Translations under genes and position numbers: made by a program | In this document: in pieces, positions 1-16,867 of the stretch | Position numbering within the stretch: the first letter of the stretch is position 1 | Layout of the letters: each line of letters begins with the position of its first letter | The notes under the pieces: generated by a model | The model's database searches: none | The model's input: only the letters and a program-made list of their open reading frames with translations | Told to the model about the DNA's origin: nothing | Virus record (IMG/VR): IMGVR_UViG_3300045996_000284 | Coordinates: 1-22,245 of that record | Reading direction: 5' to 3' (one strand) | DNA length: 22,245 bases | Origin: a virus

Positions 1-65
1 CGGCCCGCGAGATCGCGTTCGCCGTCTCGAAAGAACGTGAGGCTTTTCAATTCGTCTTTGGTCAC
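1..65 (-). CDS. Start of an unknown gene, cut by the left edge
   Basis: A reading frame opens with GTG at 65 and overlaps the TGA of the preceding gene (64-62) as GTGA, the same coupling used elsewhere in this operon. Only 21 codons lie inside the window. They begin MTKDELKSLTFFRDGERDLA and are polar and charged, with no hydrophobic stretch, so unlike the five genes upstream this product has no signal peptide. The function cannot be told from this fragment. I chose the frame because of the stop/start overlap and because it stays open to the edge; the start and frame are inferences. Confidence 0.5.
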   Translation of the reverse strand, partial: MTKDELKSLTFFRDGERDLAG

Positions 66-505
66 TTCACACACTCCACAATGCGTTTTAGTCCCGTGCC
101 GGTGGTTTTGAGCGACGTACAGGCCAGCCCCGTGATCTCGATCCGGTTGGCATCCAGGGGCTTCACCGAGAGATTGCCGCTGGTCGTAGGTACCAACTTG
201 ATCAACGCCCCTTCGATACTCGTGAGCCGTTCCAGCACTTCGTTCCCGTTCACGTCCAGGCCGAAATGCACGACGTTACTCGGGACTCCCAGATAGACCA
301 CCCGGAAATAGCCGAAATCCCCCGGCGTCAGTTTGTACGGCACTTCAGCCGAGATGGTCGTGACGAAGGTGAACGGGCCGGCTTCTGTGTCAGCCCGCTC
401 GAGGTTGATATTTCCCGTGCGCGGGGCATCCCAAAACAGGGATGCGGCCGACGCGAAGGTGGCCGAGTACCAGAAGATCGCCACCAGTGCGAAGGTCCGT
501 GTCAT
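62..505 (-). CDS. Exported small beta protein, fibronectin-III-like (last of five signal-peptide genes)
   Basis: 147 residues. Residues 1-20 form a Sec signal peptide (MTRTF, a hydrophobic core, then ASA before the predicted cut). The mature part begins with a pattern typical of fibronectin-III-like beta sandwiches: an early W-D-A-P around residue 25, a 'GPFTFV' strand, then 'YFRVVYLG' before 'SNVVHF'. The second half (about 80-147) is another small beta-rich region with the only two mature cysteines (LAC and VEC), which could form a disulfide bond. The start overlaps the stop of the beta-helix gene as TGATG, so the two are probably translationally coupled. The fibronectin-like call rests on pattern only. 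It could be a small adhesin or an accessory to the large exported protein upstream; no enzymatic motif is seen. Confidence 0.8.
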   Translation of the reverse strand: MTRTFALVAIFWYSATFASAASLFWDAPRTGNINLERADTEAGPFTFVTTISAEVPYKLTPGDFGYFRVVYLGVPSNVVHFGLDVNGNEVLERLTSIEGALIKLVPTTSGNLSVKPLDANRIEITGLACTSLKTTGTGLKRIVECVK

Positions 506-2610
506 CAGAATCCTCCCCCTCCCCCAGCGGCTTGCACGGTCGCTCGGGGGGTCACGGTGTAGGTATCAATCGCGGTGCCATCGGATTTGTAGAGGCGAAA
601 ATCGTTGGTATCGCCGTCGACGGCATCCGTATCCCACGCGAGGCAATACTCGAGTTCCGTTTTCGACGCAGGGCTATCATCGAGATCCACGCTCGGGATG
701 GCGTTACTGGTGAGCACAAGGAGCCCCGGCACAAACGTCCCGCTGGTCGACAACTGATCCGTCGTGGCCGTTTGGTTCGCGGGCACGTCGGTGTCCACGT
801 CGGTCCCGCAAAACTTTACGTTGGCCGAGCCGAACGTATCCGGGACGACGCCGTAGGCCCCACCGTTATGACTGACATAGAGGAAAAATCCGGTGGGCGG
901 GGCATCGGCCGTGCTATTCGTCAAGGCAAGCCGCAGCCGCGCTTTCGCCCCCGGCATCGGCTTAATCGGCAGATTTTCCGTGGACCCTCCCGCCGTTCGG
1001 AGCATGACCGGATCGGCTTCGGTGCCACGGTACCCGTGCCACTCATACGCGGCCTGGAGGAACAAATAGGTGGAGGCAGCGCCCACGTTGTTCGTGCACG
1101 ATTGCTGACTGATCGTGCCCCGGTAGGGCTGATTGAGGCTGTTGCCGATCAAGTCACTGGCCGTGAGATCCCCTTGCCCGCCCGCCGTGTAGGTCACGTC
1201 GATGGCGTTGCCGTTCACAATCGCGTTCGTCAACGCCAAGTCCACACGATTGTCTCCCGTGCGAGTGGTGGCCGTGACCGCGTTAGCCGCGCCGGCTTTG
1301 CGAGTCGTAAACCCTCCAGTATCCGCGTTGCTCGAGGGGAGCAGCGGTGGACTGACATTGTTCTCAAATGAGACGCGCATGACTGAGGCATCCCCGTTTT
1401 CCACCACACAACTCGAAAACTCAGCCATTTCAAACGGGCCGATGTCAGGGGCGCTTCCGTTTTTGGCAAAGCCGCCCGCCACCGTCGTCCCCACATTGAG
1501 GCATGAGCCTCCCGCCTTGTGCGTGAAGTCACTGGTGGAGGTGGTGCAATCAGTGATGGCCGCAATGGTGATCTTGCTCGAGCCGCAGGTTTCTCCTGCA
1601 GTACAGGCGTTGTGCGTGTTGGCCGTGGCCGTGCCACCCCCTGAAGAGGTGTCAAGGAAAATCTCGGTGCCCCCGTTGGCGATTACGATGTTGTTCTGAA
1701 TTGTCGCACTCGTTCCAGCCCCGAACAGCCCCATGTGGATGCCGTGTTGCGAGTTGTTGTAAATTATGTTGTGGACGATTTTCGGCCGAATACACCCGGT
1801 GCCCCCTTCGGGGTAGCCGCACTTAATGGCGTTCAGACTGTTCCCGGCAAAAATGTTCCGATAGACTTGATCATCGTTGCCGTCGAGGGTGATCGCGTCC
1901 GCGTTGTTGATGAAACGATTGCGCCGGATGATGCACCGATCAGCGTTGTCAGATCCGCTTCGATAGCACTGGACCGCGTTGCCACCCCGGTTGTCGTGAA
2001 AGTACGAATACTCGATGATCGCGTCATCACCTTTTTGATAGATGGCGTGTTTCTGGTTCGTGCTCGCACTGCCGAGATTGTCAAATTCGCTCTCGGTCAC
2101 ATACAGGTGGTCGCAGAGGTTTTGGACCCCATCTTGTTGATAGTTGGTGATCCGCACGCGCCGAAAGGTGAGATGGTGGCAGACGGGGCTCAACCCCATC
2201 CCGATTCCGTCGTTCGCGGCATTGCTCCCGTTGACCGTGAAGTCCCGAAATTCGACGTAGGAAAACGTGAGATTGCCGAAATACATGAACCCGCCAGAGG
2301 CCGTGATGGTGGTCGAACTCATCCCGTCACCTTCCACAACGGTCGGGGCGCCTTCCGTTCCGTTTTTCGCGGTGGTGAGGTTGAACTGGCTGGCTGTCAA
2401 GTTGCCGGTAATGTGGATCGTATCGCCCCCGGTAATGCAGTTATTCCACACATAGGCCACGGTCGTCGCATAGGCGCCTGGGTCCGCATCGCCGTCAATC
2501 GAGGCACACGATGGCGAGGCCGTGCCGGTCGACTTGACCCAGTATTTGGTCGCGTGAGCGGGGGCTGCCAGAAGGAGGATCGTCAGCGCGCAGAAGAGGC
2601 GTAGCATCAT
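505..2610 (-). CDS. Exported parallel beta-helix protein with SwmB-like domain (putative adhesin or depolymerase)
   Basis: 701 residues. Residues 1-20 are a Sec signal peptide ending AHA. Residues about 100-330 are a right-handed parallel beta-helix: short repeats rich in N, G and aliphatic residues, such as 'IIEYSYFHDNRGGNAVQC' and 'IIRRNRFINNADAITLDGN'. The helix closes with 'SAPDIGPFE' (387-395), an ending common in secreted bacterial beta-helix proteins. Residues about 400-505 resemble a SwmB-type repeat ('VDLALTNAIVNGNAIDVTYT' followed by 'LIGNS'). Residues 510-695 form a further beta domain with 'TELEYCLAWDTDAVDGDT', and the protein ends in five glycines and F. The mature part has 16 cysteines. 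Beta-helix phage proteins are often tailspikes or polysaccharide depolymerases, but a signal peptide is not expected on a virion spike. No catalytic residues can be assigned. The start overlaps the upstream stop by ATGA. Confidence 0.85.
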   Translation of the reverse strand: MMLRLFCALTILLLAAPAHATKYWVKSTGTASPSCASIDGDADPGAYATTVAYVWNNCITGGDTIHITGNLTASQFNLTTAKNGTEGAPTVVEGDGMSSTTITASGGFMYFGNLTFSYVEFRDFTVNGSNAANDGIGMGLSPVCHHLTFRRVRITNYQQDGVQNLCDHLYVTESEFDNLGSASTNQKHAIYQKGDDAIIEYSYFHDNRGGNAVQCYRSGSDNADRCIIRRNRFINNADAITLDGNDDQVYRNIFAGNSLNAIKCGYPEGGTGCIRPKIVHNIIYNNSQHGIHMGLFGAGTSATIQNNIVIANGGTEIFLDTSSGGGTATANTHNACTAGETCGSSKITIAAITDCTTSTSDFTHKAGGSCLNVGTTVAGGFAKNGSAPDIGPFEMAEFSSCVVENGDASVMRVSFENNVSPPLLPSSNADTGGFTTRKAGAANAVTATTRTGDNRVDLALTNAIVNGNAIDVTYTAGGQGDLTASDLIGNSLNQPYRGTISQQSCTNNVGAASTYLFLQAAYEWHGYRGTEADPVMLRTAGGSTENLPIKPMPGAKARLRLALTNSTADAPPTGFFLYVSHNGGAYGVVPDTFGSANVKFCGTDVDTDVPANQTATTDQLSTSGTFVPGLLVLTSNAIPSVDLDDSPASKTELEYCLAWDTDAVDGDTNDFRLYKSDGTAIDTYTVTPRATVQAAGGGGGF

Positions 2611-3338
2611 TTCAACACCATAGGGTAAGAGGGTTTTCTGCCACCGCTCGCGTTCAACGGGATGATCACATGCCAGAAGTTTCGTGACGTACTGTCCCAG
2701 GTGGGGGCAAACGGAGAAACGGTCCCTGTCGTCAGCGTGCCGTCACAATCACCGTTGCAACTCGTGGAATTCCGAACCCGCGCCGTCTCATTCGCGCCCT
2801 TCGCATAGTTCGGCCAGGTGGTGGCCGTGAAGAGGTAGGCGACTGCGAGCCCGTTGCTGCCCAGGGTAAAGGCGAGTGAATCGCCCGCCACTGTCGCCGT
2901 GCTTTCCGTCTCGGCAATGTTCGCCAGGGTGACAGGGTTGGAGGTGTCCACGCCGCTAAAGGAGCAAATCATGATGTCGGCGGTGCCGTTGCTACTGGTC
3001 GCCGTCACGCGCAACGTCTTATTGCCGACTGTGGGATTGGCGAGGCCAAACACCCGTCCGTAGATGTTGCCCACCCCGCCGTTATCGGCTAAGGCGGTCA
3101 TGGCTTGCGGGGTGCCGGTTTGGTCCCAGGACGCGCCCGTGAAGTTGGTGCCGGCGAGGTTGTCATCCCCGCCCGCAAACACCACGAGGTAATTCGCCCC
3201 GGCTGCGACCGTATGCGCGGCCGTGTCGCAGTTCGTGCAGGATGCGGGCTCGGCGTTCGTACACGCATCGAGGGCCACTGCCGCCCACGCGGAGAGCGGG
3301 GAGAGAAACAGTCCGAGTGCGAGAAGTAGTGTACGCAT
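2607..3338 (-). CDS. Exported beta-sandwich protein of unknown function
   Basis: 243 residues with a signal peptide (1-19, ending AWA). The mature part contains 'ASWDQTG', then 'GRVFGLANPTVGNKTLRV', and later 'CSFSGVDTSNPV'. This order of motifs (W near the start, G-L-x-N-P, alternating strand, then F-S-G-V-D) recurs in secreted beta-sandwich proteins of environmental bacteria and some phages. That statement is from memory of the pattern, not a search. Six cysteines remain after cleavage, three of them close together in 'DACTNAEPASCTNC'. The start is joined to the preceding stop as TAATG and the stop overlaps the next ATG as ATGA, so it belongs to the exported cassette. It could be an adhesin or a subunit of a surface appendage. 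No enzyme motif is seen. Confidence 0.8.
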   Translation of the reverse strand: MRTLLLALGLFLSPLSAWAAVALDACTNAEPASCTNCDTAAHTVAAGANYLVVFAGGDDNLAGTNFTGASWDQTGTPQAMTALADNGGVGNIYGRVFGLANPTVGNKTLRVTATSSNGTADIMICSFSGVDTSNPVTLANIAETESTATVAGDSLAFTLGSNGLAVAYLFTATTWPNYAKGANETARVRNSTSCNGDCDGTLTTGTVSPFAPTWDSTSRNFWHVIIPLNASGGRKPSYPMVLK

Positions 3339-4546
3339 TAGTTACTCACGCTCCCTTTGCTATATTTCATGGTGACGCCTAAGACTTTGGCGTTGGCGGC
3401 GTTGGCTGAGAAATTGGCCGCATCGACGACATAGCGCCATTGCAACCACGCTTCAGCCGCACACGTCCCGTTCGGGGTGACGGCCGCAGTGGTCGCTTCC
3501 TCGATTTCATGCGCGGTGGTGATCGAGACATCTGCGGCCACCGCGGTTCCGTACGTCGAGTTAATGACGTCGGTCGTGCCCGCGCGTCGACACTGGGCCG
3601 AGAAGTCCCCCGCGAAGGTGATCGATTCCGTGGTCGCATGGTAGAGACTGAGCGTGAAGGTCACAGTGCCCAAGTCCCAACTCTTCGGCATTCTGATCTT
3701 CCCGCTGAAGATCGAAGATCCGCTGTCCGCACAGGAAAACGCCCATGTTTTTTCAGCTGAGTTCAAGGCTTGTTCAGTCGGAGCACCGCAATTCGTCCCG
3801 TCTACGGCGATGGCCCCGGCATCCCAGTACGCGACTTCCACCGGCTTCGTGGCCGAACACGTATAGGTCCATGCCGCATTCGGAGAGGCGGCGTCCGGGT
3901 CAATGCGGAGGATCCAGCAATCGTTCTCCTCATCGTAGAAGCCACCCGTGAAATTCGTGAGAATGAGTTGTCGGACGTCCGACGCGGTGCAGGGCCGCAG
4001 TTGCAGCCCTGTCGTCGCATCTTCGTAAATACACCATTTCAACGTCCCGCCGATTTTGACCGCACTGGCGAGGGACGTGGCGTTATCGGTTTCCGCGCCC
4101 GTCGCAATCACTTGATCGAGGGTCGGGGTGGCCCCGCCCCCACTGCCCCCGCCGCCAAAGATGGCGGTGGTCGCGCGGCCGGTCACGGTCACCGTGCAGG
4201 AGGAACACGCCGAGATCACCATCCGGACGATCTGGTAGCCGGCGATATTGCATTGCACTTGAGCGGAGGACGAGACACTGACGACGGCGGTCGTGTCATC
4301 AGAGGGCACGCACAGCTTGTCGACGAACGTCGTGCCGTTCTGCGACACCCGAAAGGTGACTGTCGCCGTGTTGGTAATCGCCACGGTCACCGCAAGGGTG
4401 GTGTATTTATCCACCACCAAATCCGTCCCGTCCCCATCAACGGTCACGGCCGAGTGAAACGTATGGGTCACAAAGCGCGCATCTTCCGCGAAGACAGGCG
4501 GGGCCAACGCCATCAGCAACACAAACAGCCCGAGTAATTTTTTCAT
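3338..4546 (-). CDS. Exported fibre-like protein
   Basis: 402 residues. Residues 1-20 are a clear signal peptide (MKKLL, hydrophobic core, VFA before the cut). Residues 21-128 are a threonine- and valine-rich beta domain with two cysteine pairs, ending in 'CSSCTVTVTG'. A glycine linker (FGGGGSGGGA, about 132-141) leads to a region resembling phage fibre or neck-fibre proteins: 'ATSLASAVKIGGTLKWCIYE' followed by 'LQLRPC'. The C-terminal part ends 'NAKVLGVTMKYSKGSVSN', a style of ending I associate with phage appendage proteins. The mature chain has 12 cysteines. It starts 24 bases after the preceding stop with an excellent ribosome binding site (AGGAGG, five bases before ATG). I infer an exported, disulfide-bonded fibre or adhesin; its partner is unknown. 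Confidence 0.82.
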   Translation of the reverse strand: MKKLLGLFVLLMALAPPVFAEDARFVTHTFHSAVTVDGDGTDLVVDKYTTLAVTVAITNTATVTFRVSQNGTTFVDKLCVPSDDTTAVVSVSSSAQVQCNIAGYQIVRMVISACSSCTVTVTGRATTAIFGGGGSGGGATPTLDQVIATGAETDNATSLASAVKIGGTLKWCIYEDATTGLQLRPCTASDVRQLILTNFTGGFYDEENDCWILRIDPDAASPNAAWTYTCSATKPVEVAYWDAGAIAVDGTNCGAPTEQALNSAEKTWAFSCADSGSSIFSGKIRMPKSWDLGTVTFTLSLYHATTESITFAGDFSAQCRRAGTTDVINSTYGTAVAADVSITTAHEIEEATTAAVTPNGTCAAEAWLQWRYVVDAANFSANAANAKVLGVTMKYSKGSVSN

Positions 4547-4551
4547 CCGTC

Positions 4552-4557
4552 CCTCCT
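4552..4557 (-). promoter_or_regulatory. Strong ribosome binding site of the 402-residue exported protein
   Basis: The minus strand reads AGGAGG five bases before the ATG at 4546. It is one of the best Shine-Dalgarno matches in the window and the only one inside the exported cassette that is not embedded in a coding overlap, so this gene may be the strongest translation entry point of the cassette. The same AACCAGGAGG string precedes the gene starting at 16541. Confidence 0.75.
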
Positions 4558-4570
4558 GGTTAAAAACTTC

Positions 4571-5029
4571 CTACCGTCGACACTCCGTAAACGCGGGATC
4601 CGTACTGAGATAGCCCGCCACCCACACGTTCATGTTTTGCGGCTCGTCACTGGCGTTTGATAGTGCCCCGTCCAGCCGCGACCCTGGCGGAAGAATGAAC
4701 GGGACGGTCGTGTGGATGGATGGGGCTTGCTCCGTCACCGTGATGACCCCCCACAACATGAGGTAGCTGTTTCGATGCGTGCCCCCGTTAAAAATGTTTT
4801 TTGAGGCAAAGTGGAAATCGGTCAGCCCCAGCCAATGCCCTTCTGGGACGAGGTACGGGAAGCTGTACCCGTAATTCGCGTACATGGGCTGGTAGGTCAG
4901 CGGGGTCTGGAATTGTTGTGTCCACGGCGGAACCGGCGCCACGTTCGCGGTGAATTGCACCAAGTGGCACGCGGCATGGGCGCCGGCCGGCAGCACGAAC
5001 ACAAGGGCGAGAAGGATCGAACGAATCAT
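4571..5029 (-). CDS. Exported small beta protein (first of five signal-peptide genes)
   Basis: 152 residues when started at the ATG at 5029, one base after the tail-fibre stop (TAA 5033-5031). An in-frame start at 5074 would add 15 residues overlapping the fibre gene and would bury the signal peptide, so I reject it. Residues 1-19 (MIRSILLALVFVLPAGAHA) are a signal peptide with A-H-A at the cut. The mature part is aromatic and beta-rich ('YANYGYSFPYLVPEGHW', 'YLMLWGVITVT', 'VPFILPPGSRL', 'VWVAGYL'), consistent with a jelly-roll or similar sandwich. Only two cysteines remain, at mature residue 2 and near the C terminus, well placed for a bond joining the ends. A lipoprotein alternative (H-A-A-C) is possible but the -3 position is poor. 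Confidence 0.8.
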   Translation of the reverse strand: MIRSILLALVFVLPAGAHAACHLVQFTANVAPVPPWTQQFQTPLTYQPMYANYGYSFPYLVPEGHWLGLTDFHFASKNIFNGGTHRNSYLMLWGVITVTEQAPSIHTTVPFILPPGSRLDGALSNASDEPQNMNVWVAGYLSTDPAFTECRR

Positions 5030-5030
5030 G

Positions 5031-6326
5031 TTACCTCTCATACGAAATGTTGACACTCCCTGCATCGAACGCATCAGTCCCGTTCACGGTAGTAATCCGT
5101 ACCCGGTCAAGCACCGCTGATAACGCTTTCACTCCCGCTGTCGCAATCAAGCTGGCCGAATTCGAGAGCCCGATGTTCCCGTGCGCGGCCCACAAAAACG
5201 TCGCCGCGTTCATGAGCGTCAACACGATGGCCCCGTGCAGGATGTTTGCTGCCGCTGCCGAGTTGATCCCAAAACCGGTTGTGAAATTCGAGACGGCCAC
5301 CGCCGATCCGTCGTCTAAGGCCGTGGACGACCCTAAATAGCCAGTCGGTTCAATGCCCCCGACATCTCCGATTTGGATGAGCGGTTTACTGGTGCCGTTG
5401 GTCGACACCCCGGAGAACATGATCGTGATGCGTTTCACATCGGCCGGGATGCTGGTGAAGTCGATCGCCACGCCCGAGGTGGACGCTTGTAAGGTGCCAA
5501 TCTTTTTCGCGCCGACGTTCTCAGGTTTGACTTTCTTCGCGGTCGATGCGCTGGCATCATAGGTCATGAGAAAATCCGCAGCCGGATCCGGGGTGGTGTC
5601 CTCCGTTAGCGCGTTCGTCCCTTGGCCGAGGATTTCTACGACGGTCGTCCTCCCGCCCGTGTCTTGATCCACGTCCCGGTAGGGGATTTGATCACCGCTC
5701 GCCAACGCCGCCCCGTGGTCACTCAACCCAGCTCCGACCAACGTGTTGACGAACGTGTCGCCATCCGGATCGTCCAGGAGCGTTTCAGTAAACGCGGTGG
5801 TAATAGAGGTATCCGTGGGCGCACCCAGGACGGTCGGTTGCCCATCTGAATCGAACCCGAGATATTTGCTCGCCCGATCCACCGCCATCGGCAGATCATC
5901 CATCTCGTCCACGTCCCAGTCCGGGGCTCGGAGCGAGCGGTTGATCCGATCATTCGCGCGCTGCGCCAAAAATGTTTGGTAATCGAGCGCGGCTTCCACT
6001 TCTTCGACGGGGAGGCTGTCATCTTCCACCAGATCCAGTTCTTGGACGAACGAAGGTTCGCGGAAGACCACCATCGTGATCGTGCTCGCCCAGGCGCCGT
6101 CCACGATCGTGATCGTGCCGCCGTTGGGGTAATGGCCCCGGTCATCCTCTGTGCCACTCCACGTCCAGCCCGAGGTGATCGCGAGACTCGTCTCTTCCCC
6201 CGTCGCCGTGACCACGGAGACGACATCCAGATCGTCCGTGCTATGGATCGGCCAGGGCACCGCAATCGTGTCCGTGCTCCCGTTGCCGACTTGGGTGATC
6301 CGACAATCTTCGTTTGAGATGGTCAT
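5031..6326 (-). CDS. Tail fibre with T7-type N-terminal anchor
   Basis: 431 residues, no signal peptide. The N-terminal 140 residues follow the T7 tail-fibre anchor pattern: 'RITQVGNGSTDTIAVPWPI' at the start, a beta stretch with 'YPNGGTITIVDGAW', then 'REPSFVQELDLVEDD', 'LPVEEVEAALDYQTFLAQRA' and 'RINRSLRAPD'. This domain attaches fibres to the tail nozzle. The middle (about 150-270) is acidic and probably a shaft. The last 150 residues form a separate beta domain ending 'AFDAGSVNISYER', a common end of phage fibre tips. The protein has one cysteine, in sharp contrast to the exported proteins downstream. The start overlaps the ejection-protein stop as ATGA and has AAGGAGG seven bases before ATG. 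It probably recognises the host surface. Confidence 0.88.
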   Translation of the reverse strand: MTISNEDCRITQVGNGSTDTIAVPWPIHSTDDLDVVSVVTATGEETSLAITSGWTWSGTEDDRGHYPNGGTITIVDGAWASTITMVVFREPSFVQELDLVEDDSLPVEEVEAALDYQTFLAQRANDRINRSLRAPDWDVDEMDDLPMAVDRASKYLGFDSDGQPTVLGAPTDTSITTAFTETLLDDPDGDTFVNTLVGAGLSDHGAALASGDQIPYRDVDQDTGGRTTVVEILGQGTNALTEDTTPDPAADFLMTYDASASTAKKVKPENVGAKKIGTLQASTSGVAIDFTSIPADVKRITIMFSGVSTNGTSKPLIQIGDVGGIEPTGYLGSSTALDDGSAVAVSNFTTGFGINSAAAANILHGAIVLTLMNAATFLWAAHGNIGLSNSASLIATAGVKALSAVLDRVRITTVNGTDAFDAGSVNISYER

Positions 6327-9300
6327 TTCGTCGCCTCCTTGATCTGTCGAAGGGCGTCGTTCCCGGCTTGAGCCACCTCGATCATGCGGAAATACAGGGT
6401 GTCGATCAGTTGTCGTTTGTCATCGCGGGACATCTCCGGGTTCTTGTGGATCAACCGGATCATCTGAGAATGCTGGGTCAAGACTTCGCGCATATCGGCC
6501 AGATCCGCCATCGCTGCCGGATCAAAGGCCATCGCCCGTTGCACCGCGTCCGCATCCCCTTCTTTGGCCTTCGCCATCACCGTCTCGAACACCCTGTGGT
6601 GCGCGTAGTATTCGGTATAGAAACTTTGAATCGACTGAGCACTCGCGGACGGATAGCGCACGGCAAAGGCTTTGATGACCGGAAGATCGGCTAACGTGTT
6701 CGCTGGCAGCACGGGATCAGGCAGCGCCCCCGCTTCCCGTAAGGCTTTATCGGCTACCTGTAAGGCGTACATCCCCAGACCACCCGTCCACGCCCGAAGA
6801 TAATTCTCGAGCAACGCCGGGGTGGTGAGGGCTCTGGCAGTGCCACCGATCAGGGACTTCTCGTCTGAGATGGCCCGTTCGGTCATGCCGGGGAAGGCGC
6901 TGAACATCCTGCCAAGCGCCTTGGCTGCTTCAGTGGTGTATTCACTGTATTGATATTCCGGCAGGAGTTTTTCTGCACTAGCCGACACTAAGGGTGTGCC
7001 GGTAAAAAGAGAGCGGTTCGAAAATTGTTCGACCACCGGGGTCGCGACGTTCGGGACCATGTTCGGCAGAAACGCATCCATCAGCGCGTTCTCGAAATCC
7101 TTAAAGGCTTTGGGGTTATCGTTGAAAAACGCATCCAGCGATCGCTCGGGGAGCGTGCCAAAGATCAAGCCGATTTCGAACGGCTTCGGGATCCGGAAGA
7201 TGTGGTCCTTCGTCATCACGATCCAGAACAAGTCTTTCTGCCACTGCGGAACTTCTTTGTACCGAGGATCGTCGTGGTTCGCGTACCACAAGAGAATCGA
7301 GGGCAACGTAACGGCCGCGCCGATCTTGGCTGACGTCCCCACGGGGTTCTCGCCAAAGGCTCTGACAATGCGATCCACGCCTTGGATTTGAGCATTGAAG
7401 AATGCGCTGATCATATTCACGGCGCGAGTCTTGGCGCCGATGCGTGAGAAGTCGAGGGTCACTTCGCGGGAGGCCATTGCCCCCTCTTGCAACGCGCCTT
7501 TATCCACCCGATCGCCCACCACCCGCTTGAACTCGCCTAACCGGGTCGCGTTCTCGGTCAACTCGGAGACGATCCGCAGCATTTCCACCGGGGTCGTGAC
7601 GACGTTCCACGCCTTGTCCATCAGCCCGGTTTCTTTGGACAGATCGAAAATGTGTTGCTGCAAATACTGACGATCAACAGATACCATCGCCGCGTTTGCC
7701 CCGCCGGATTTCAGCCAGTTTCCGTAGGCTTCGTCTTTCTTCGCCAGGGACAGGGCCCCACGCACGAAATCGAAGATGGGGTAATACCCGCCTTTGGAGA
7801 GAATGAACGCGGACAACTGATCGCGAATGGAGTTGCGCGCGATGAAGTCGGGAGACAGGATCGACCCGGCTCGCAGCATCTTCGTCGGCACAGACAAGAC
7901 CTTCATCAGAATGTTCGCGGTTTCCACATCGGTCGCTTTGAACGCGGCTGCGACATCCGGATCCAGTTCCCACACCGAGCGTTTGCCATCGATCCACACC
8001 GCGATCTCGTTCGGTTTCAACGGTTCACGGAAGGTCCGGAAGATCGTGGCCGCTTCGTTGGGCAACCGAATGTCCAACTCGGGGATGTATTCGGTCTTTT
8101 CAATTTCCTTGACGATCTTCTCCACCGTGTGCTCGATCCGAGTCGTGCCCCCACCGGTTCCGCCTTTGTTCCCCTCGATCACTCGAGCCAACATCTGATC
8201 GGCTTCACCCTTGCTGAACCCGCGTGCGGAGAGGGCTTCCTTGACCCGATCGGTGACCATCCGGAGGGCTTTGGATTGTTGCTCGGGCGTCTCGCCCGCC
8301 CCGCCCGTATGCGTCGTGCTGGTGTGCTCTTTCGTTTTCGACTCAGTGACCGTGCGCGATTGCGCCTTGTGGATCGTCAAGAACTCATCGAACACCTTGC
8401 GAATTTCGTCTTCCTTGAGGTTGATCGGCCGTTGCTTGGGCGGTACCTTGACCGCAAACTCCTCGGGATGCCCCGACTTGTTCGCCATCTCGAGAAACGC
8501 TTTGCCCACGGCGTTCCTCTCGGCAATCGCGAGGTACGTGTACGTGTTCTTGATGATCGACTCGATCGGGTCCACGATCTGCCGCTGCGAGCCCTTAATG
8601 CCTTTAATCGGATTCTCCACCGACATCCCACGGCCAGGGCCGCGCGAAGCCTCTGGGTCCATGACCCGGAAAAACGGGACGTATTTTTTGTTCGCGTCAA
8701 GCATCGCCTCATACGTTTCGGAGGAGAGCATGCCCGCGTCTTTCAAATACTTCGTCAGCTTGTTTTGAAACTCGACCATTTCGGCGGCAACCTTGGCGTA
8801 TTTCCCTTTGCCTTCTTTCACCGCAGCGATCGCCGTCTCGGGGTCCACCCCACTCTCGATCCCTCGGCCGTGGAGTTCCACCGCACGATCGGCCACCATG
8901 TAGGCCCGCAGTCCATCGAGGTCTTGCTTGACCGGTTCCACGATCGCCTTCAACGACTTGCCGATGTTCTCGTAGGTCTTGAAATCAAACGGCGCGATCT
9001 CGAGAAAGTGATCGGCTTTGCCAAACGTCCCGCGCGCCGTGCGTGCGAGTTGATAGGGATCTTCCGACGTCTTCAGATCGACTTTGGATTCTTTGACCGC
9101 TTCCCGAATCGGGTTGAGATCATCGATCGTCTGGGTGTACAGCTTTTGCCACGTCAGCTTTTCGGGCTGGCTCTCACCCACGCTGATCTTCTTGGCGACT
9201 TCCTTGAGAGCCGTTCCCCCGTACGCCGTGGGGATTTCTACATTGTCTGAGGCGAGGTCTTGCGCGATCGTCGGGTCTTTCTGTATGTCCGACGCCACGT

Positions 9301-10129
9301 CTTCGGGCTTGACCCCTGTCTCGGCGTAGATGTTCCGGAGCTTCCCTGCGATCTTCCCGGCGCCTTTGACGAACCCTAGCGCGATCGCCGTGTCGACGAA
9401 ATCCTGGGGCTCGGGCATCTGCCCCTCGAGAGCTTTCCCTACGGTCACCATCGTGGTGACTTCACTGCCCAGCGTGAGCGCGTTCTTGACCGTCTGTGAG
9501 GGGATCGGCGCTGCGCCTACCGCTTTGCCCACTGCACCGGTCGCGGCTCCAGTGATCCACCCTTTGGCGGTATCAATGAACGCCCCGGAGAAGCGATCCC
9601 AGAAATCTTGCCACCCGTCGACTTCGCCCTTCTCGTATTTGTCCATGAGGATCTTCCGCATCCCGGCCGGCAGTGCGAATGCGCCCGCTGTTCCGGTGAT
9701 CGGGTTCGACCCACCCGCCATGAATCCACCCACCATTGCGGGCACATCCCCGGCGAGCCCTGCGACGTTCGCCGCGATCCGTGAGGCCATCGACGCATCT
9801 TCCGTAAGGGCGACATCCGGACCTTTGCCCCGTGTCACCAACCCCGTGACCGATTGCTGCCAGCCCGCTTTCCACGCCTCTTCAAGACTGGTGACCGGCT
9901 TCGGTTGCCCTGCCTCCCCCTCTGGGGCGGTCGCCTTCGTCAACGTCTCGTTGATGTGGTCTTTGACCGGCTTGTCGTCAAACGGGGGCTTGCCGAAATA
10001 GCTGTCCACCTCGCCCACGGAGAACCCGGCTTCCATGAGTTCTTTGCGACGGCCAACGGCCCAGTCTCCGACTTCTTGGTCAGAGAACCCAGCTTTCCTC
10101 AGTTGTTCGGCTTCCTGTACCCCGTTCAT
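6323..10129 (-). CDS. Large internal virion / DNA ejection protein (gp16-like position)
   Basis: 1268 residues, the largest gene of the window and in the place of T7 gene 16. The N terminus has two copies of an A-G-F-S-x-x-E-V helix-turn motif (residues about 13-42), followed by alanine/glycine-rich hydrophobic stretches near 110-200 that could insert into membrane. Residues about 475-530 ('VPFFRVMDPEASRGPGRG', 'KGSQRQIVDPIESIIKNTYT') and 745-800 ('MLRAGSILSPDFIARNSIRD') match what I remember of large polyvalent proteins with an LPD38-type domain. There is no cysteine in the chain. I do not see the lytic transglycosylase domain that T7 gp16 carries. The start overlaps the preceding stop as ATGA. 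Proteins of this class leave the capsid first and build a channel across the envelope. Confidence 0.82.
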   Translation of the reverse strand: MNGVQEAEQLRKAGFSDQEVGDWAVGRRKELMEAGFSVGEVDSYFGKPPFDDKPVKDHINETLTKATAPEGEAGQPKPVTSLEEAWKAGWQQSVTGLVTRGKGPDVALTEDASMASRIAANVAGLAGDVPAMVGGFMAGGSNPITGTAGAFALPAGMRKILMDKYEKGEVDGWQDFWDRFSGAFIDTAKGWITGAATGAVGKAVGAAPIPSQTVKNALTLGSEVTTMVTVGKALEGQMPEPQDFVDTAIALGFVKGAGKIAGKLRNIYAETGVKPEDVASDIQKDPTIAQDLASDNVEIPTAYGGTALKEVAKKISVGESQPEKLTWQKLYTQTIDDLNPIREAVKESKVDLKTSEDPYQLARTARGTFGKADHFLEIAPFDFKTYENIGKSLKAIVEPVKQDLDGLRAYMVADRAVELHGRGIESGVDPETAIAAVKEGKGKYAKVAAEMVEFQNKLTKYLKDAGMLSSETYEAMLDANKKYVPFFRVMDPEASRGPGRGMSVENPIKGIKGSQRQIVDPIESIIKNTYTYLAIAERNAVGKAFLEMANKSGHPEEFAVKVPPKQRPINLKEDEIRKVFDEFLTIHKAQSRTVTESKTKEHTSTTHTGGAGETPEQQSKALRMVTDRVKEALSARGFSKGEADQMLARVIEGNKGGTGGGTTRIEHTVEKIVKEIEKTEYIPELDIRLPNEAATIFRTFREPLKPNEIAVWIDGKRSVWELDPDVAAAFKATDVETANILMKVLSVPTKMLRAGSILSPDFIARNSIRDQLSAFILSKGGYYPIFDFVRGALSLAKKDEAYGNWLKSGGANAAMVSVDRQYLQQHIFDLSKETGLMDKAWNVVTTPVEMLRIVSELTENATRLGEFKRVVGDRVDKGALQEGAMASREVTLDFSRIGAKTRAVNMISAFFNAQIQGVDRIVRAFGENPVGTSAKIGAAVTLPSILLWYANHDDPRYKEVPQWQKDLFWIVMTKDHIFRIPKPFEIGLIFGTLPERSLDAFFNDNPKAFKDFENALMDAFLPNMVPNVATPVVEQFSNRSLFTGTPLVSASAEKLLPEYQYSEYTTEAAKALGRMFSAFPGMTERAISDEKSLIGGTARALTTPALLENYLRAWTGGLGMYALQVADKALREAGALPDPVLPANTLADLPVIKAFAVRYPSASAQSIQSFYTEYYAHHRVFETVMAKAKEGDADAVQRAMAFDPAAMADLADMREVLTQHSQMIRLIHKNPEMSRDDKRQLIDTLYFRMIEVAQAGNDALRQIKEATK

Positions 10130-11746: not shown

Positions 11747-12259
11747 TTAGTCCAAGTTGTAGAGCGCCCCGCCGCTCCCATAGCTCTGCGTCAACGGACG
11801 CTGAGAGGCGGCATAGGTCGAGCCCGCCCGTCCTGCCCCAGTTAAGAGATACGACGCGGCGTTGAGCGGCCCTTGATCGCCCGCCACTTCTGCCCCGTGC
11901 CGGTTCAACATCGCGTCGTTGTAATAGCCGGTCGCTTTCAATTTGCCCCGGTAGTTGATCGTCGCCACATCCAGCGCCACTTGTGTTTCGCTTGCGCGTA
12001 AGACGTCCAAGGGACTGCCTTCATCCGTCGCCACCCCAGAAGCCCCATAGCCCGCAATCAACGAGCCAGCCGCACGCACGCCGTCACGGTGTACCCGCTC
12101 GGCATCAGCCTTGGCTTGATCCATCGACACGATCGCCGCGCGTTCGTTCATCCGGGCGTTGTACATGCCCGCTGCCTTGGCTGCATTCGCTTGCTGCATC
12201 GCGCCCACCGCACTTACGGCAGCACCCGCCAGCATCATGAAGCTAATTGGTTCAGCCAT
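11747..12259 (-). CDS. Internal virion protein (gp14-like)
   Basis: 170 residues. The first 30 residues are alanine-rich and hydrophobic (MAEPISFMMLAGAAVSAVGA), followed by a helical region and the segment 'GYGASGVATDEGSPLDVLRA', which I recognise as the signature of gp14-type internal virion proteins: an A-S-G-V turn, then G-S, then a long helix. The C terminus is glycine/serine-rich (SYGSGGALYNLD). There is no cysteine. In T7 the equivalent protein forms a pore in the outer membrane during DNA ejection. The start lies eight bases inside the end of the preceding gene, so translation is probably coupled. The N-terminal hydrophobic stretch could be mistaken for a signal peptide but lacks a basic start, and the family normally has it. 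Confidence 0.8.
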   Translation of the reverse strand: MAEPISFMMLAGAAVSAVGAMQQANAAKAAGMYNARMNERAAIVSMDQAKADAERVHRDGVRAAGSLIAGYGASGVATDEGSPLDVLRASETQVALDVATINYRGKLKATGYYNDAMLNRHGAEVAGDQGPLNAASYLLTGAGRAGSTYAASQRPLTQSYGSGGALYNLD

Positions 12260-12758
12260 TGGGTAACTCGATCCTCACCATCATCAGTTGCGTCGAGCCG
12301 TCCGGAGCGTACGCCAGCATGTTCGACTCATGGACAAACCCCAGGTGCATCGCCCACCGCACGGCTTCGGGATTGCGCCCATCGACCACGCACTCGAGAC
12401 GTGCCACCCGGTACCCGTCGATGAATTTCTTGACCGCTTTGTGAATCGTCTTTTTGTATTGCGCCATCAGCGGTGAGAGCATCGACCAGACTTGCGCGCG
12501 ACCGTCCCAGAATTTGCAGATGCCCGCACAGGCGATCACGTCTTTGCCAGCGAAGGCGGTAAAACAGGGCCCCGCATACATGAGCGACGAACCGTGTGAG
12601 CGCGTGAGCAAGTGCGCCACATGCTGTTGCGAGTCCTGCAAGGCGAGCCAGGTCAAATGCCACGGCTCGAACTTTACGATGTCTACCGGTCTTGGGTGAC
12701 CAGCGACGGCATGATCGCCACCACGGTCCCGGCCAACGGTTTGTTGAAACGCCAACAT
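12252..12758 (-). CDS. GNAT-like (gp13-like) small protein with uncertain start
   Basis: Up to 168 residues. From about residue 27 ('VDIVKFEPWHL') the layout is that of a GNAT acetyltransferase fold: a beta strand ('GPCFTAFAGKDVIACAGIC'), a helix ('KTIHKAVKKFIDG'), then 'RLECVVDGRNPEAVRWAMHL' and 'GFVHES', the V-x-x-x-N-x-x-A-x-x-x-x-x-x-G-F ending of that fold. Genes of this kind often sit between the nozzle and gp14-like genes of podoviruses, where they may be assembly factors rather than enzymes. The ATG at 12758 lies 76 bases inside the nozzle gene and has a GGAG about nine bases upstream. The conserved part begins right at the nozzle stop, where the frame offers no ATG, GTG or TTG (the next is a TTG at residue L of 'WHLTW'). 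Either the long overlap is real or the start is unusual. Confidence 0.7.
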   Translation of the reverse strand: MLAFQQTVGRDRGGDHAVAGHPRPVDIVKFEPWHLTWLALQDSQQHVAHLLTRSHGSSLMYAGPCFTAFAGKDVIACAGICKFWDGRAQVWSMLSPLMAQYKKTIHKAVKKFIDGYRVARLECVVDGRNPEAVRWAMHLGFVHESNMLAYAPDGSTQLMMVRIELPNG

Positions 12759-15034
12759 ACGCGGTTCTCCGTCGTGTAATTGCCTTCCCAGTGTGTCTCT
12801 TTGTCGCCTGTAAACAACGGCACAGGGGCGCTCGTCGGATCGCCGCCCGTCCGAAACGTCAACCGGTGTAATTTGTCAAAACTCGGACCAACTGACATCC
12901 CACCCGTGTCGTACAACCGAAACGTCATGCGGTTCGTCCGCTGCAGTTTCCCTTGCGCGGTGCCGGTCGCAGAGCCCGTATCCGAAATGAGCGTTTGACC
13001 ATCGCTGTTGTAGGTGTAGCCCACATGGACAACGGAGGCTTCCCGCTCGAGCGTAATTGATCCCGTCGCACTCACGACACAATCCGGATGGATCGCGCCG
13101 TCCGCTAAGACTTGCACCGTCTCGCCCTTTAAGTGGTACAGCCCCGTGATCGTGGTCGTCGCACTCCCGTCGTACGTCAGCCCGCAATCGAGAAAGAACT
13201 GATCGACGGGATCGTTGCCTTGCTCCCAGACGTCCACTAAAAATTCGATCGTGCGCGTCTCGAGGCCGTTGATCCACCGCTTCACCACCACCCAGAGTTC
13301 GTCATAGCTCCCATCGGACGACGGAATGACACACGCCGACTCCACCACCGGGTGAACGGTGTGCCCCGCGTTCGACCACCCGCCCAGTTCATGCCGCTGC
13401 CACCCGATCACTTTGTCGTCTTTGCTGAACACGCAACTCACGAGGATCCCGTCACGCCGAGGGGCCCAGACGATCGGGAGTTTTTTCTTTTGATAGGCCA
13501 GTTCGATCAACCCAGACGCGGCCACCGTGGACTCTCCTGCCTCTGGTTCTGCCGGATCGTAGTTGCCTTTGGTGATATGCTCGGCTAACACCGTCGCATC
13601 GGTCGACTGCAAGGTGTTCTCGTAGTACAGATAGTTCAGTTCGCGCACCCGCCGCTCGCCCTTTTCGATGTACAGCAACACCGGCCCCGCTTTGACCGGT
13701 TGTGTATCCGCGCTGCCCCAGTCGGAGGATTGACTCGCGTTCACGTTCGTCGGGGTGATGGCTTCTTTCAACGTCGACGCACTCACCAACCACTCCCCTT
13801 CGAACGTCCCGACCGCAATCCCGTTCGAGGTCGACTTCATCCACCGCACGGTTTGGACGTCATCGGAATTCAACCGGAAGGCCACGGCATGGCTGTCGGT
13901 AATGGTGCCATCTGTCGGGACAGTCGGCGCATGGTTGTCGTAATCGCCCACGCGCGAGCCGTCGATGCGTTCGGGCACGGCGGGGCAGCCCGCGCGATAC
14001 AGCCGATCGCCATAGAAGGTCGTACAGGCGGGATAGCCAGTCGTGTCGGAATACAGCCCTAACCGCCAAGTGGTTTTGGCATTCGTGTTGACCAACGTGT
14101 TGACGACCGTGACAGTTACCACGGTCGTACTCGTACGCCCGGTGATCTGGCAGTACCCCCACGCAGTGCCTTCCGCCATCCGGATCAACCGGCCGATGTC
14201 AGTCTCTTGAAACCCCGCCCCATCGTTGATATTGGTGACCGCGCTGGCGGTCAACGTGACCCCGGATCCAGTGGCCGCACTCGGCGTCAAGGTCGTGCCG
14301 GTGGGGGGCTCGGGGAGATAGGGCCCGTCGAGAAAGACGGTATCCGTCAACGTCCAACTGGAATCCGAGACGCGCCTGAGTTGCGCTTCGTGATAGTCGG
14401 GGTGGCTGATATACATGACGTCGGCCGACTGCGTGAACTTCATCTGAAACAAGTCGGTTTGGCTGTAGCTCGTCGCCAGCACATACACCCGCTTGGCCGA
14501 GCCCCCGCTCACATAGGTCGTATAGGTCGAACTGTTGACCGGATCGTTGTTCATATCCGTCAACTCGAACGTGTTGGCCCCGGCGTTCACGTTGTCGATC
14601 CGATAGCGCCGGCCGTTGACTTCCGTCATCCCGACGACGCCGCTAATATCGAGTTGGTCATCATTCGCCGGATCAGTCCCGGTATAGGTGACCACGGCGG
14701 GATTCGCTTTGGTGATCCCGGTGATCGTGAGCGTCAGATCGTAGACGGGCGCCCGATCCTTCTTGAAGCGGATCGCCCCGTGGCTGAACTCCAAGACAAA
14801 CGCCGAGACGGTGGAGTATTTGAACTTGACTAAACGTGTGGGGAGCGTGCGGGTCTTCGCTTCATCGCAGAAATAGAACCCCGGCCGGCGCGTCACCGGC
14901 CCTTGCAGAAATGGGAGATGATTCTTGAGGACACGACACGAAGACTTATAGCGGTCGAACGTGACTCGGCCCGCGAGCAAGCCCGAGACTTCTCCGGAGT
15001 TAAAGTTCTCTTGAATAGGCGAAGCCGAAGGCAC
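12683..15034 (-). CDS. Tail nozzle (tail tubular protein B, gp12-like)
   Basis: 783 residues, starting with GTG at 15034, six bases after GAGAGGTG, and three bases after the previous stop. The N terminus has the family signature: 'IQENFNSGEVSGLLAGRV', then 'FDRYKSSCRVLKNHLPF', then 'GPVTRRPGFYFC'. The rest is beta-rich, with 'TSYSQTDLFQMKFTQSADVMYISHPDY' (residues about 185-215) and 'TTFYGDRLYRAG' being typical conserved blocks of phage nozzle proteins. In T7 six copies form the lower part of the tail, to which the fibres attach. The length matches the family (about 700-850). The position directly after the adaptor gene supports the call. Confidence 0.88.
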   Translation of the reverse strand: MPSASPIQENFNSGEVSGLLAGRVTFDRYKSSCRVLKNHLPFLQGPVTRRPGFYFCDEAKTRTLPTRLVKFKYSTVSAFVLEFSHGAIRFKKDRAPVYDLTLTITGITKANPAVVTYTGTDPANDDQLDISGVVGMTEVNGRRYRIDNVNAGANTFELTDMNNDPVNSSTYTTYVSGGSAKRVYVLATSYSQTDLFQMKFTQSADVMYISHPDYHEAQLRRVSDSSWTLTDTVFLDGPYLPEPPTGTTLTPSAATGSGVTLTASAVTNINDGAGFQETDIGRLIRMAEGTAWGYCQITGRTSTTVVTVTVVNTLVNTNAKTTWRLGLYSDTTGYPACTTFYGDRLYRAGCPAVPERIDGSRVGDYDNHAPTVPTDGTITDSHAVAFRLNSDDVQTVRWMKSTSNGIAVGTFEGEWLVSASTLKEAITPTNVNASQSSDWGSADTQPVKAGPVLLYIEKGERRVRELNYLYYENTLQSTDATVLAEHITKGNYDPAEPEAGESTVAASGLIELAYQKKKLPIVWAPRRDGILVSCVFSKDDKVIGWQRHELGGWSNAGHTVHPVVESACVIPSSDGSYDELWVVVKRWINGLETRTIEFLVDVWEQGNDPVDQFFLDCGLTYDGSATTTITGLYHLKGETVQVLADGAIHPDCVVSATGSITLEREASVVHVGYTYNSDGQTLISDTGSATGTAQGKLQRTNRMTFRLYDTGGMSVGPSFDKLHRLTFRTGGDPTSAPVPLFTGDKETHWEGNYTTENRVCWRFNKPLAGTVVAIMPSLVTQDR

Positions 15035-15037
15035 TGC

Positions 15038-15655
15038 TCACCTCTCGCGCCACGTCTCGTCCACCAACTGCCCGGATTGCCGAGCCAGGATCCAGCTATC
15101 CACCGGCTCATGTTGCTGCGGCTGTTCAAAGGCGTTCATCTTGCGAGCCACGGCTCTCGCCCTGTCGTACATCCGTTCCAACGACTCTTTCTTCGTGTTC
15201 GATTGCGTGATCTCTTCGCAGCAATGCCACGCGATTTTGCACGCGAGCATTTCAATGAAGAGGGGATGATACTTCGTCGGATCTTCAATCAGCGCGTGAT
15301 AGACCAGTTCGATCTCGTCATCCTCGTTGGTGAGAATCGCGTTATAGCCTTCGTGCAATTCCACCGACCAGTCCAACGAGATGCGCGCGGGTTTCCGGAA
15401 GGTCAGACAATCAGGCGGCAGCACAAACGCATAGTCGTAATCGAAGGCGGGCGCCGTCGCGTGCGGCCCGAGGGAGGCCCGCTTTTTCGTGAAATTCCAC
15501 CGATGCGAGGCGAGTTCGATGCCCAACTGCAAGTCGTAACAGGCGTTAATCGACCGCGCGTTCGGATGATCCTGCGTCAACGAGGTGATGCGTTCAGCCC
15601 CGAGCTTTTGCAACGCCAGATTCGCGATTTTGGTTTTACTCACATCGAGCGACAT
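15038..15655 (-). CDS. Head-tail adaptor (tail tubular protein A, gp11-like)
   Basis: 205 residues. The opening 'KIANLALQKLGAERITSL' followed by 'HPNARSINACYD' and 'ELASHRWNFTKKRASL' is the hallmark of gp11-like proteins (asparagine-alanine-leucine helix, L-G, then W-N-F-x-x-x-R-A-x-L). A helical C-terminal half ('LFIEMLACKIAWHCCEEI', 'LERMYDRARAVARKMN') follows. In T7 twelve copies dock on the portal and form the gatekeeper ring above the nozzle. The ATG at 15655 follows GAGGTG with a four-base gap, and the ribosome binding site overlaps the stop of the glycosyltransferase gene. The next gene begins three bases after this stop. Confidence 0.88.
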   Translation of the reverse strand: MSLDVSKTKIANLALQKLGAERITSLTQDHPNARSINACYDLQLGIELASHRWNFTKKRASLGPHATAPAFDYDYAFVLPPDCLTFRKPARISLDWSVELHEGYNAILTNEDDEIELVYHALIEDPTKYHPLFIEMLACKIAWHCCEEITQSNTKKESLERMYDRARAVARKMNAFEQPQQHEPVDSWILARQSGQLVDETWRER

Positions 15656-15663
15656 CGATCACC

Positions 15664-16260
15664 TCAGTAGTGGTAATCCCCGATATGCTTCACCTCGAGC
15701 GTCGGCTCACACCACGTCTCAATCCCGACTTTGGCCGCTTGCTCAGAAAACCACCGGTCATCCGTCATCGAGAGCCGGCCGGTCGCATCCCACGTCATCC
15801 CGAACCACGGTTGCGGGATCTTCTTGAGGGCTTCGACCTTCACCAACATGCAGCCAAAGCCGATCGAGTGGCAGATAAACGGTTCGTTCGGCATCATGGC
15901 GGGGTTCGCAAACTCGATCATGCCGTGGTCCGTGAGCATCGTAACGACCGTCTGCAGCGGCATCTTTCGCATGTTGTACGCGGCCCCAATGATCCCCTTA
16001 TCGGCTTTCATTAAGGCGCCCAACGCCCCCGGAGGAATCGACATATCGTTGTCCAAGATCCACGCGTAGTCGCAGCCCGCTTCAACCGCTTGCGTACAGC
16101 CCAACCACCGGCCATGGCACCCGTAGGTACTCGGGATGTCAGCCATCAGAAATTGCACAGCACTCGAGAGGCTGAACATCTCGGACACCACATCCGGCAG
16201 CAACGATCCCTTGACCGTGCCGCCGTGCGGCAAGACCACCATGACGGTTCGAGGTGTCAC
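15664..16260 (-). CDS. Phage glycosyltransferase, GT-A-like, in the structural operon
   Basis: 198 residues when started at GTG 16260, which overlaps the preceding stop as GTGA; an ATG six codons further in (16242) is an alternative. The frame stays open to 16347 but that extension lies over the upstream gene and looks like frame shadow. The fold is read from 'RTVMVVLPHGG' (first beta strand), 'CTQAVEAGCDYAWILDNDMS' with D-N-D at residues 70-72 in the place of the metal- and nucleotide-sugar-binding DxD, 'HSIGFGCMLVKVEAL' (131-145, acceptor-side region), 'TDDRWFSEQAAKVGI' with D-D at 167-168 and a late histidine (H192). This matches family-2-type GT-A transferases acting in the cytoplasm. The sugar and acceptor are unknown; a virion protein is a reasonable guess. 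About 200 residues is short for the family. Confidence 0.78.
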   Translation of the reverse strand: MTPRTVMVVLPHGGTVKGSLLPDVVSEMFSLSSAVQFLMADIPSTYGCHGRWLGCTQAVEAGCDYAWILDNDMSIPPGALGALMKADKGIIGAAYNMRKMPLQTVVTMLTDHGMIEFANPAMMPNEPFICHSIGFGCMLVKVEALKKIPQPWFGMTWDATGRLSMTDDRWFSEQAAKVGIETWCEPTLEVKHIGDYHY

Positions 16261-16541
16261 GCTTTGACCGGGGCAGACTTCGTGAGTTTCACCATCGATT
16301 CGATCGTCAACTTGGCCGCGTCCTTCTGCCAGCCGTCGACCAACCACACTTTGTACGTCACCACCGCACCCTTCGGACCCGGTGTCGGGACGATCGCGTG
16401 CGTGTCATGCCACTCCACACCCGGAGCTTTCCGCAACAGCCGGCGCAACACCCCTTCTTTCTCGCGTTGCTCAAGATAAATTTGGTGCTCCCGTTCCAAC
16501 TGTTCTTTTGTCTTGCGGGCTCCGACGATTGCGTCTGCCAT
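16257..16541 (-). CDS. Unknown 94-residue phage protein
   Basis: 94 residues from ATG 16541, chosen because AGGAGG lies five bases upstream; a GTG at 16544 would be only two bases from that site. The N-terminal half is strongly charged and helical ('KTKEQLEREHQIYLEQREKE', 'VLRRLLRK'), likely a coiled coil. The second half is a short beta/alpha segment ('GAVVTYKVWLVDGWQ') with a lysine-rich end. I do not recognise the family. It is the first gene after the intrinsic terminator, and its stop overlaps the glycosyltransferase start, so the two are probably made together and may cooperate. Confidence 0.75.
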   Translation of the reverse strand: MADAIVGARKTKEQLEREHQIYLEQREKEGVLRRLLRKAPGVEWHDTHAIVPTPGPKGAVVTYKVWLVDGWQKDAAKLTIESMVKLTKSAPVKA

Positions 16542-16546
16542 CACAT

Positions 16547-16552
16547 CCTCCT
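16547..16552 (-). promoter_or_regulatory. Ribosome binding site that decides the start at 16541
   Basis: AGGAGG on the minus strand is five bases before ATG 16541 and only two before the in-frame GTG at 16544, so the ATG is the better start. It lies just after the T-run of the terminator at 16559-16595, so ribosome loading and termination are tightly adjacent. Confidence 0.7.
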
Positions 16553-16558
16553 GGTTAG

Positions 16559-16595
16559 AAAAAAGCCCGACCCCACGTCACCGTGAGATCGGGCC
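16559..16595 (-). terminator. Intrinsic (rho-independent) terminator at the end of the head module
   Basis: Read on the minus strand, GCCCGATCTCAC pairs with GTGGGGTCGGGC (12 pairs, two of them G-T) around a six-base loop GGTGAC, followed at once by seven T. It lies 20 bases after the stop of the 65-residue gene and 18 bases before the next ATG. It separates the head genes from the glycosyltransferase and tail genes and probably sets a higher transcript level for capsid genes. No promoter for the downstream genes is obvious in the 17 bases that remain, so they may depend on read-through. Confidence 0.88.
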
Positions 16596-16615
16596 CTGTT
16601 TGCACTGGCTCGCCA

Positions 16616-16813
16616 TTAGGCGATCGGAGAGGTTTCTTTGGTGATCAGGTAATTCAGAATCGCCTTCACACTACAAATCAACGACGCCTTGTTCTTCGAA
16701 TACACGGAATCCGAGATCCGTAATTCGATGGCTTCGGACGAAGTGGAAGACCCTTCCGTGACCTGGCTCACTTGCTGTTCTCCAAACACCACGCTGTAAA
16801 AACGATCTGCCAT
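16616..16813 (-). CDS. Small phage protein next to the decoration gene
   Basis: 65 residues from ATG 16813 (MADRFYSVVFGEQQ). An in-frame GTG at 16852 would add 13 residues, but those codons form a perfect hairpin and the AGAGGTG site serves the ATG, so I take the shorter form. The sequence has a beta start, 'GSSTSSEAIELRISDSV' and a helical end ('LICSVKAILNYLITKE'). Small proteins of this style are often found after the capsid and decoration genes of BPP-1-like podoviruses (recollection, not searched). The role is unknown; it may be a head completion or stabilising protein. Confidence 0.75.
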   Translation of the reverse strand: MADRFYSVVFGEQQVSQVTEGSSTSSEAIELRISDSVYSKNKASLICSVKAILNYLITKETSPIA

Positions 16814-16816
16814 GTT

Positions 16817-16823
16817 CACCTCT
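16817..16823 (-). promoter_or_regulatory. Ribosome binding site that decides the start at 16813
   Basis: AGAGGTG on the minus strand ends three bases before ATG 16813 (core GAGG about five bases away). It directly follows the 16827-16853 hairpin and favours the ATG over the GTG at 16852. Confidence 0.65.
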
Positions 16824-16826
16824 AGT

Positions 16827-16853
16827 AGTGGCTGCGTTTTTACCGCAGCCACT
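16827..16853 (-). other. Perfect 10-bp intergenic hairpin, not a terminator
   Basis: On the minus strand AGTGGCTGCG, a seven-base loop GTAAAAA and CGCAGCCACT form a fully paired stem between the decoration gene (stop at 16868) and the small gene starting at 16813. No T-run follows on either strand, so termination is unlikely. Possible roles are RNA stabilisation, a processing site, or control of the adjacent ribosome binding site. Confidence 0.7.
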
Positions 16854-16867
16854 GACAGGGTTGAGGG

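Follow-up and report, generated by a model that had tools for sequence, protein, structure and literature searches.

The window, the whole stretch of 22,245 bases analysed here, is a linear fragment of a virus record and carries a late podovirus operon on its minus strand, in which portal-like, capsid-like and tail genes are accompanied by those for a tail fibre and a 1268-aa protein bearing LPD38. Directly 3' of the fibre gene lie five adjacent open reading frames, all on the minus strand (62-5029; Table 1), as the preliminary description had it; from the fibre onwards we call them e152, e402, e243, e701 and e147. That description also regarded the five as coupled to each other and to the fibre. 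This applies to most of the junctions, with a 1 nt gap between the fibre and e152 genes and overlaps of 1, 4 and 1 nt at the later junctions, but a gap of 24 nt separates e152 from e402. The start of a further gene overlaps the e147 stop, and its counterpart in an independent contig, L082, is the gene that follows e147 there and is itself followed by a holin-like gene. Given the fibre before e152 and this start overlapping the e147 stop, the block is complete at both ends. The MTKDEL gene has no Pfam family match, and we infer a lysis role for it from its position only.

Table 1. Coordinates of the tail fibre gene, the exported block and its parts in the window
Feature	Position	Strand	Evidence
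Tail fibre, T7 gp17-type, 431 aa, without signal peptide	5031..6326	-	residues 1-137 match phrog_1640 and related tail families
e152, 152 aa, predicted exported small protein	4571..5029	-	signal peptide; tblastn matches to Pam5_19 and Pam3_26; 69% identity in L106
e152 signal peptide, cut AHA/AC	4973..5029	-	rule-based call
e402, 402 aa, predicted exported; N half conserved, C third variable	3338..4546	-	signal peptide; L082 homologue 62%
e402 signal peptide, cut VFA/ED	4487..4546	-	rule-based call
XepA/YomS-like mature N-domain of e402, residues 21-125	4172..4486	-	NF047953 E 0.001, far below cut-off; YomS 6i5o E 0.2
e243, 243 aa, predicted exported, fast-diverging	2607..3338	-	signal peptide; L082 positional counterpart 22% identical
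e243 signal peptide, cut AWA/AV	3282..3338	-	rule-based call
e701, 701 aa, predicted exported; N half variable, C half conserved	505..2610	-	signal peptide; L082 homologue
e701 signal peptide, cut AHA/TK	2551..2610	-	rule-based call
e147, 147 aa, predicted exported, Fn3-like by pattern	62..505	-	signal peptide; 91% identical in L082
e147 signal peptide, cut ASA/AS	446..505	-	rule-based call
Next gene, start only (GTG; MTKDELKSLTFFRDGERDLAG...), truncated by window end	1..65	-	matches L082 14014-14502

Elsewhere in the operon, a gene at 12252-12758 matches the internal virion protein family phrog_308 and shares about 76 bases with the gene for tail protein B. Identity between the LPD38-position protein (6323-10129) and its L082 counterpart (L082:3980-7666) is only 25%, against 81% for tail protein B, which suggests that part of the LPD38-position gene may have been replaced between the two genomes.

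Signal peptides were called by a rule combining a net positive n-region, a hydrophobic core of 8-15 residues and small residues at positions -3 and -1. By this rule, all five block proteins have a type I signal peptide, in agreement with the preliminary description, and the 17 other window genes tested have none; in each of the five, a basic N terminus leads into a hydrophobic core, with an A/V-x-A site near residue 19-20. Shuffled versions of the five proteins are still called at 2-5%. In related loci, the 613 genes of at least 140 aa include 10 that reach a score of 10 by the same rule, and seven of these 10 are found to the tail/lysis side of the LPD38 gene. The signals are kept in homologues, namely those of e402, e701 and e147 in L082 and those of e152 in an uncultivated phage (L106) and in phages Pam5 and Pam3. 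Judged by eye, the e243 counterpart of L082 and the e147 homologue of another contig, L084, each begin with a hydrophobic stretch and have a cut site; with no early positive charge, they go uncalled by the rule. The number of mature cysteines is even in all nine cassette proteins (2, 16, 6, 12 and 2 in the window; 14, 4, 16 and 2 in L082) and likewise in the e147 homologue of L084, as would be expected of exported proteins with disulfide bonds. In the same operon, the large internal virion proteins have no cysteines; other cytoplasmic window genes are cysteine-rich. Wrong start codons were set aside as an explanation, since homologues begin at the same signal, and an alternative e152 start four codons upstream also keeps it. 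An assembly artefact was set aside because the gene order is repeated in the independent contig L082. There is good support for export of the five consecutive late gene products, and we hold it very probable that all five block proteins are exported.

The preliminary description had suggested a search of related contigs for the same cassette, and L082 carries four of the five genes (e402, e243, e701 and e147) in the same order. Tail protein B of the window shares 81% identity with its L082 counterpart; e147 lies above and e243 far below this value (Table 1). The two e402 proteins share approximately 70-90% identity over the first half and 20-42% over the last third, and the e701 proteins mostly 16-30% over the first half and 50-76% over the last half. 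A C-terminal stretch of e147 with two cysteines is conserved, also in L084. Such conserved carriers with fast-changing parts would fit surface-binding proteins, inside or outside the virion. Scans of viral contigs with e701 and e402 returned the L082 contig as the sole relative, and a scan with e147 matched the L082 contig and L084. Bacterial genomes scanned with e147 and with the fibre start of a further contig, L079, yielded no relatives, and no relatives of e701, e402, e243 or e147 were found among named phages at the limits used.

The mature parts had been described as resembling fibres and beta-helix or beta-sandwich adhesins, a likeness that is based on pattern only; Pfam gives just a sub-threshold SWM_repeat match among the five (e701, PF13753, E 7e-4). 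This SWM_repeat-like stretch lies in the conserved C half of e701. The N half is beta-helix-like by pattern only, and the simple beta-helix motif count of the protein, 3, is reached by 16 of 1000 shuffles, too weak to prove the fold. No enzyme family matches any of the five, and none of them matches the docking domain PF03906 or tail PHROGs, whereas the upstream fibre does match tail PHROGs. AlphaFold2 models built from two-sequence alignments had pLDDT values of 44 (e402) and 30 (e701) and are unusable.

Over residues 21-125, the sole NCBIfam match of e402 is PBSX XepA (NF047953; 18.2 bits, E 0.001, against a curated cut-off of 400 bits), which the L082 homologue matches too. The best PDB sequence match of this N-domain is the weak one to YomS (6i5o, E 0.2). 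Each of the two matches is weak, but the libraries are separate and both point to one family. The identification of e402 as XepA was rejected, its score being far from the curated cut-off. The XepA/YomS fold is a C2-like beta-sandwich in pentameric discs, to be set beside an e402 model of pLDDT 44 and a YomS match of E 0.2. XepA, of the Bacillus subtilis prophage PBSX, is exported beyond the membrane in phage development, belongs to the lysis system and is absent from mature particles (PMC6834076), and e402 may work like it.

For e152, tblastn identified homologues in two cultured phages, Pam5 (Pam5_19, E 3e-10) and Pam3 (Pam3_26, E 9e-11), which are unrelated phages isolated on one Pseudanabaena strain; Pam5 is a podovirus with a short tail and Pam3 a myovirus with a contractile one. 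Both proteins are homologous to e152 across the mature domain, each has a signal peptide and two mature cysteines, and both genes lie after the fibre or spike region. Pam3_26 follows the fibre and the fibre assembly protein and precedes the lytic enzyme and the holin, and Pam5_19 comes after the tail spike, with two genes separating it from the endolysin that follows. In L106, whose fibre is 52% identical to that of the window, the order is fibre, e152 homologue, M15_4 peptidase gene and holin-like gene, the peptidase gene overlapping the e152 homologue by 4 nt. The preliminary description held that exported fibre-like proteins are not expected in this position. The exported e152 homologues in the same slot, from fibre to endolysin or holin, in L106, Pam3 and Pam5 call for a correction of that statement, as does the published export of the non-virion protein XepA. 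Directly after the e152 homologue of Pam5, Pam5_20 (L104:8399-8728) is also predicted to have a signal peptide. Pam3_26 matched no PDB chain, and the Pam3 fibre gp24 is present as 7yfw and 7ypx; absence from solved Pam3 structures does not prove absence from virions, as flexible or sparse parts are not modelled. The Pam3 virion has already been analysed by mass spectrometry (PMC9608196). Considering that the e152-type protein is common to phages with different tails on one host, it more likely meets the host than the tail. This argument covers e152 only, because the other four proteins have no relatives in named phages.

Export signals were also predicted on fibres of related contigs. In L079, a T7-type fibre (11934-13502) above the cut-off of Pfam Phage_T7_tail (PF03906) has a textbook signal peptide and begins MRKFLLNAALIAAFLMATVSVYAPALA/TVTS, and in L002 a gp17-type fibre (14475-16928) has a basic-hydrophobic N-terminal extension behind a GGAGG site. 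The cut site of the L002 extension is weak, and this extension may be an uncleaved anchor. The usual docking-domain start codon is absent from both genes, and no further gp17-type fibre was found in either contig, both being fragments. Single-protein scans of viral contigs with the L002 and L079 fibre starts identified relatives that begin directly at the docking domain, without signals; the signals on these two fibres are thus additions.

Several further genes with predicted export signals or membrane spans were observed in these loci. In Podoviridae sp. ct8d5349 (MW202898), the gene directly behind the tail fibre encodes a fibre-repeat protein whose signal peptide is predicted from an internal start (L085:35733-38486). 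In L071, two fibre genes are shortly followed by one for a 646-aa protein (14999-16939) that has NosD-type beta-helix repeats and a signal peptide. L079 has a second predicted exported adhesin-like protein downstream of its likely lysis genes (16062-16805), and in L008 a 150-aa Fn3-like protein with a signal peptide comes directly after an endolysin-like gene (11962-12414). In L067, a multi-membrane-span protein, perhaps O-antigen-ligase-like, is encoded between the LPD38 gene and the tail fibre (12607-13662).

We regard the block, with a probability of roughly one half, as a late, exported, lysis-phase set of adhesin-like proteins directed at the envelope or slime, mostly not virion parts. 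The five products are predicted to leave the cytoplasm via the host Sec pathway, and their even cysteine numbers suggest that they would fold with disulfide bonds beyond the membrane. Co-translation with the fibre and the place before the lysis genes suggest that they would accumulate in the envelope late in infection, to be released with the virions at lysis. The conserved modules (e402 N half, e701 C half and e147) may link the members of the set or attach to a constant target, and the variable ones (e402 C third, e701 N half and e243) may bind or alter the host envelope, capsule or slime. The proteins would then act, like XepA, as exported lysis-phase accessories on the host envelope and surroundings rather than as virion parts.

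It is also conceivable, although unlikely, that the proteins are virion appendages that fold oxidatively in the periplasm and become attached to the particles only beyond the cytoplasm, while lysis is under way or afterwards. Joining after lysis had been put forward in the preliminary description. It is favoured by the L079 and L002 fibres, the only gp17-type fibres seen there, which bear a predicted signal together with a docking domain and lack the usual internal start. The signal-bearing fibre- or spike-like proteins adjoining the fibre in L085 and L071 also favour it, as does the resemblance of the combined conserved and variable modules to receptor-binding proteins. However, no recognised docking domain is present in any of the five, the docking-domain relatives of the L079 and L002 fibres have no signals, and the L002 extension may stay uncleaved. 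Moreover, e152 homologues occur in phages of one host that differ in tail type, contractile and short, and no solved Pam3 chain contains the Pam3 form. A broader proposal is that some podoviruses finish their virions outside the cytoplasm. Sec-exported fibre-type adhesins, including the L079 and perhaps the L002 tail fibre, would fold in the periplasm and be mounted at lysis, and the five-gene block would be the most elaborate form; we consider this doubtful.

Phage proteins acting at the cell surface against superinfection are established, and exported, adhesin-like proteins with fast-diverging modules could coat the infected cell or be shed as decoys, blocking receptors against other phages. 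Yet this is improbable here, as the late, fibre-coupled place beside the lysis genes would leave little time to protect the cell, and no outer-membrane barrel or convincing lipobox was noticed on inspection. Secreted enzymes, such as polysaccharide depolymerases clearing slime for the released virions, are suggested by the beta-helix-like look of the e701 N half and by the L071 counterpart, which is above the Pfam NosD cut-off. With no enzyme family match among the five and a weak e701 motif count, such a function is quite improbable, and the depolymerase activity suggested earlier found no direct support. It would be more surprising still if the hydrophobic starts were non-working signal peptides and the proteins stayed cytoplasmic. 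The predictor is rule-based only and calls some shuffled controls, but the signals stand five in a row, are kept in homologues of several phage groups and accompany even cysteine numbers.

Taken together, the interpretation in the preliminary description is partly supported. The usual view of tailed phages is that the whole assembly takes place in the cytoplasm and that little is exported apart from lysis and exclusion factors. A coupled, exported, disulfide-type and adhesin-like block at the junction of fibre and lysis genes points either to a lysis-phase secretome with targets in the envelope or surroundings or to assembly steps that take place beyond the cytoplasm; it appears that some phages produce secreted sticky proteins as a set shortly before the cell bursts. 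Pam3 gp26, as the e152 homologue, makes the question testable in a cultured system. Exported non-virion lysis-phase phage proteins are known, and what is new here is the coupled block of five; as the preliminary description had anticipated, no paper on such a block was found, nor any direct account of exported tail fibres, in a search that had most subscription journals outside its scope.

Among known systems, lambda Lom and similar exported proteins are encoded, like the block, beside tail-fibre genes. Lom is a single outer-membrane barrel of a temperate phage, unlike the block, a coupled set of soluble-looking beta-type proteins, and a Lom-type moron is an independent transcription unit, against which the tight coupling to the fibre speaks. 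The gene before the block encodes a T7 gp17-type fibre (PF03906), the type that bears added, predicted signal peptides in L079 and L002; such fibres have a docking domain, which the five proteins lack. Pam3_26 and Pam5_19 share with e152 the signal peptide, the two mature cysteines and the position between fibre or spike and lysis genes, but they are followed by no e402, e243, e701 or e147 and are annotated only as hypothetical proteins. XepA and YomS, of prophages PBSX and SPbeta, are late, grouped with lysis genes, exported and non-virion (PMC6834076), and they match the e402 N-domain weakly in sequence. They differ from the block in belonging to prophages of a Gram-positive host and in being one protein rather than five, and e402 differs from XepA in its second half, in bearing a Sec signal peptide and in having 12 to 16 mature cysteines.
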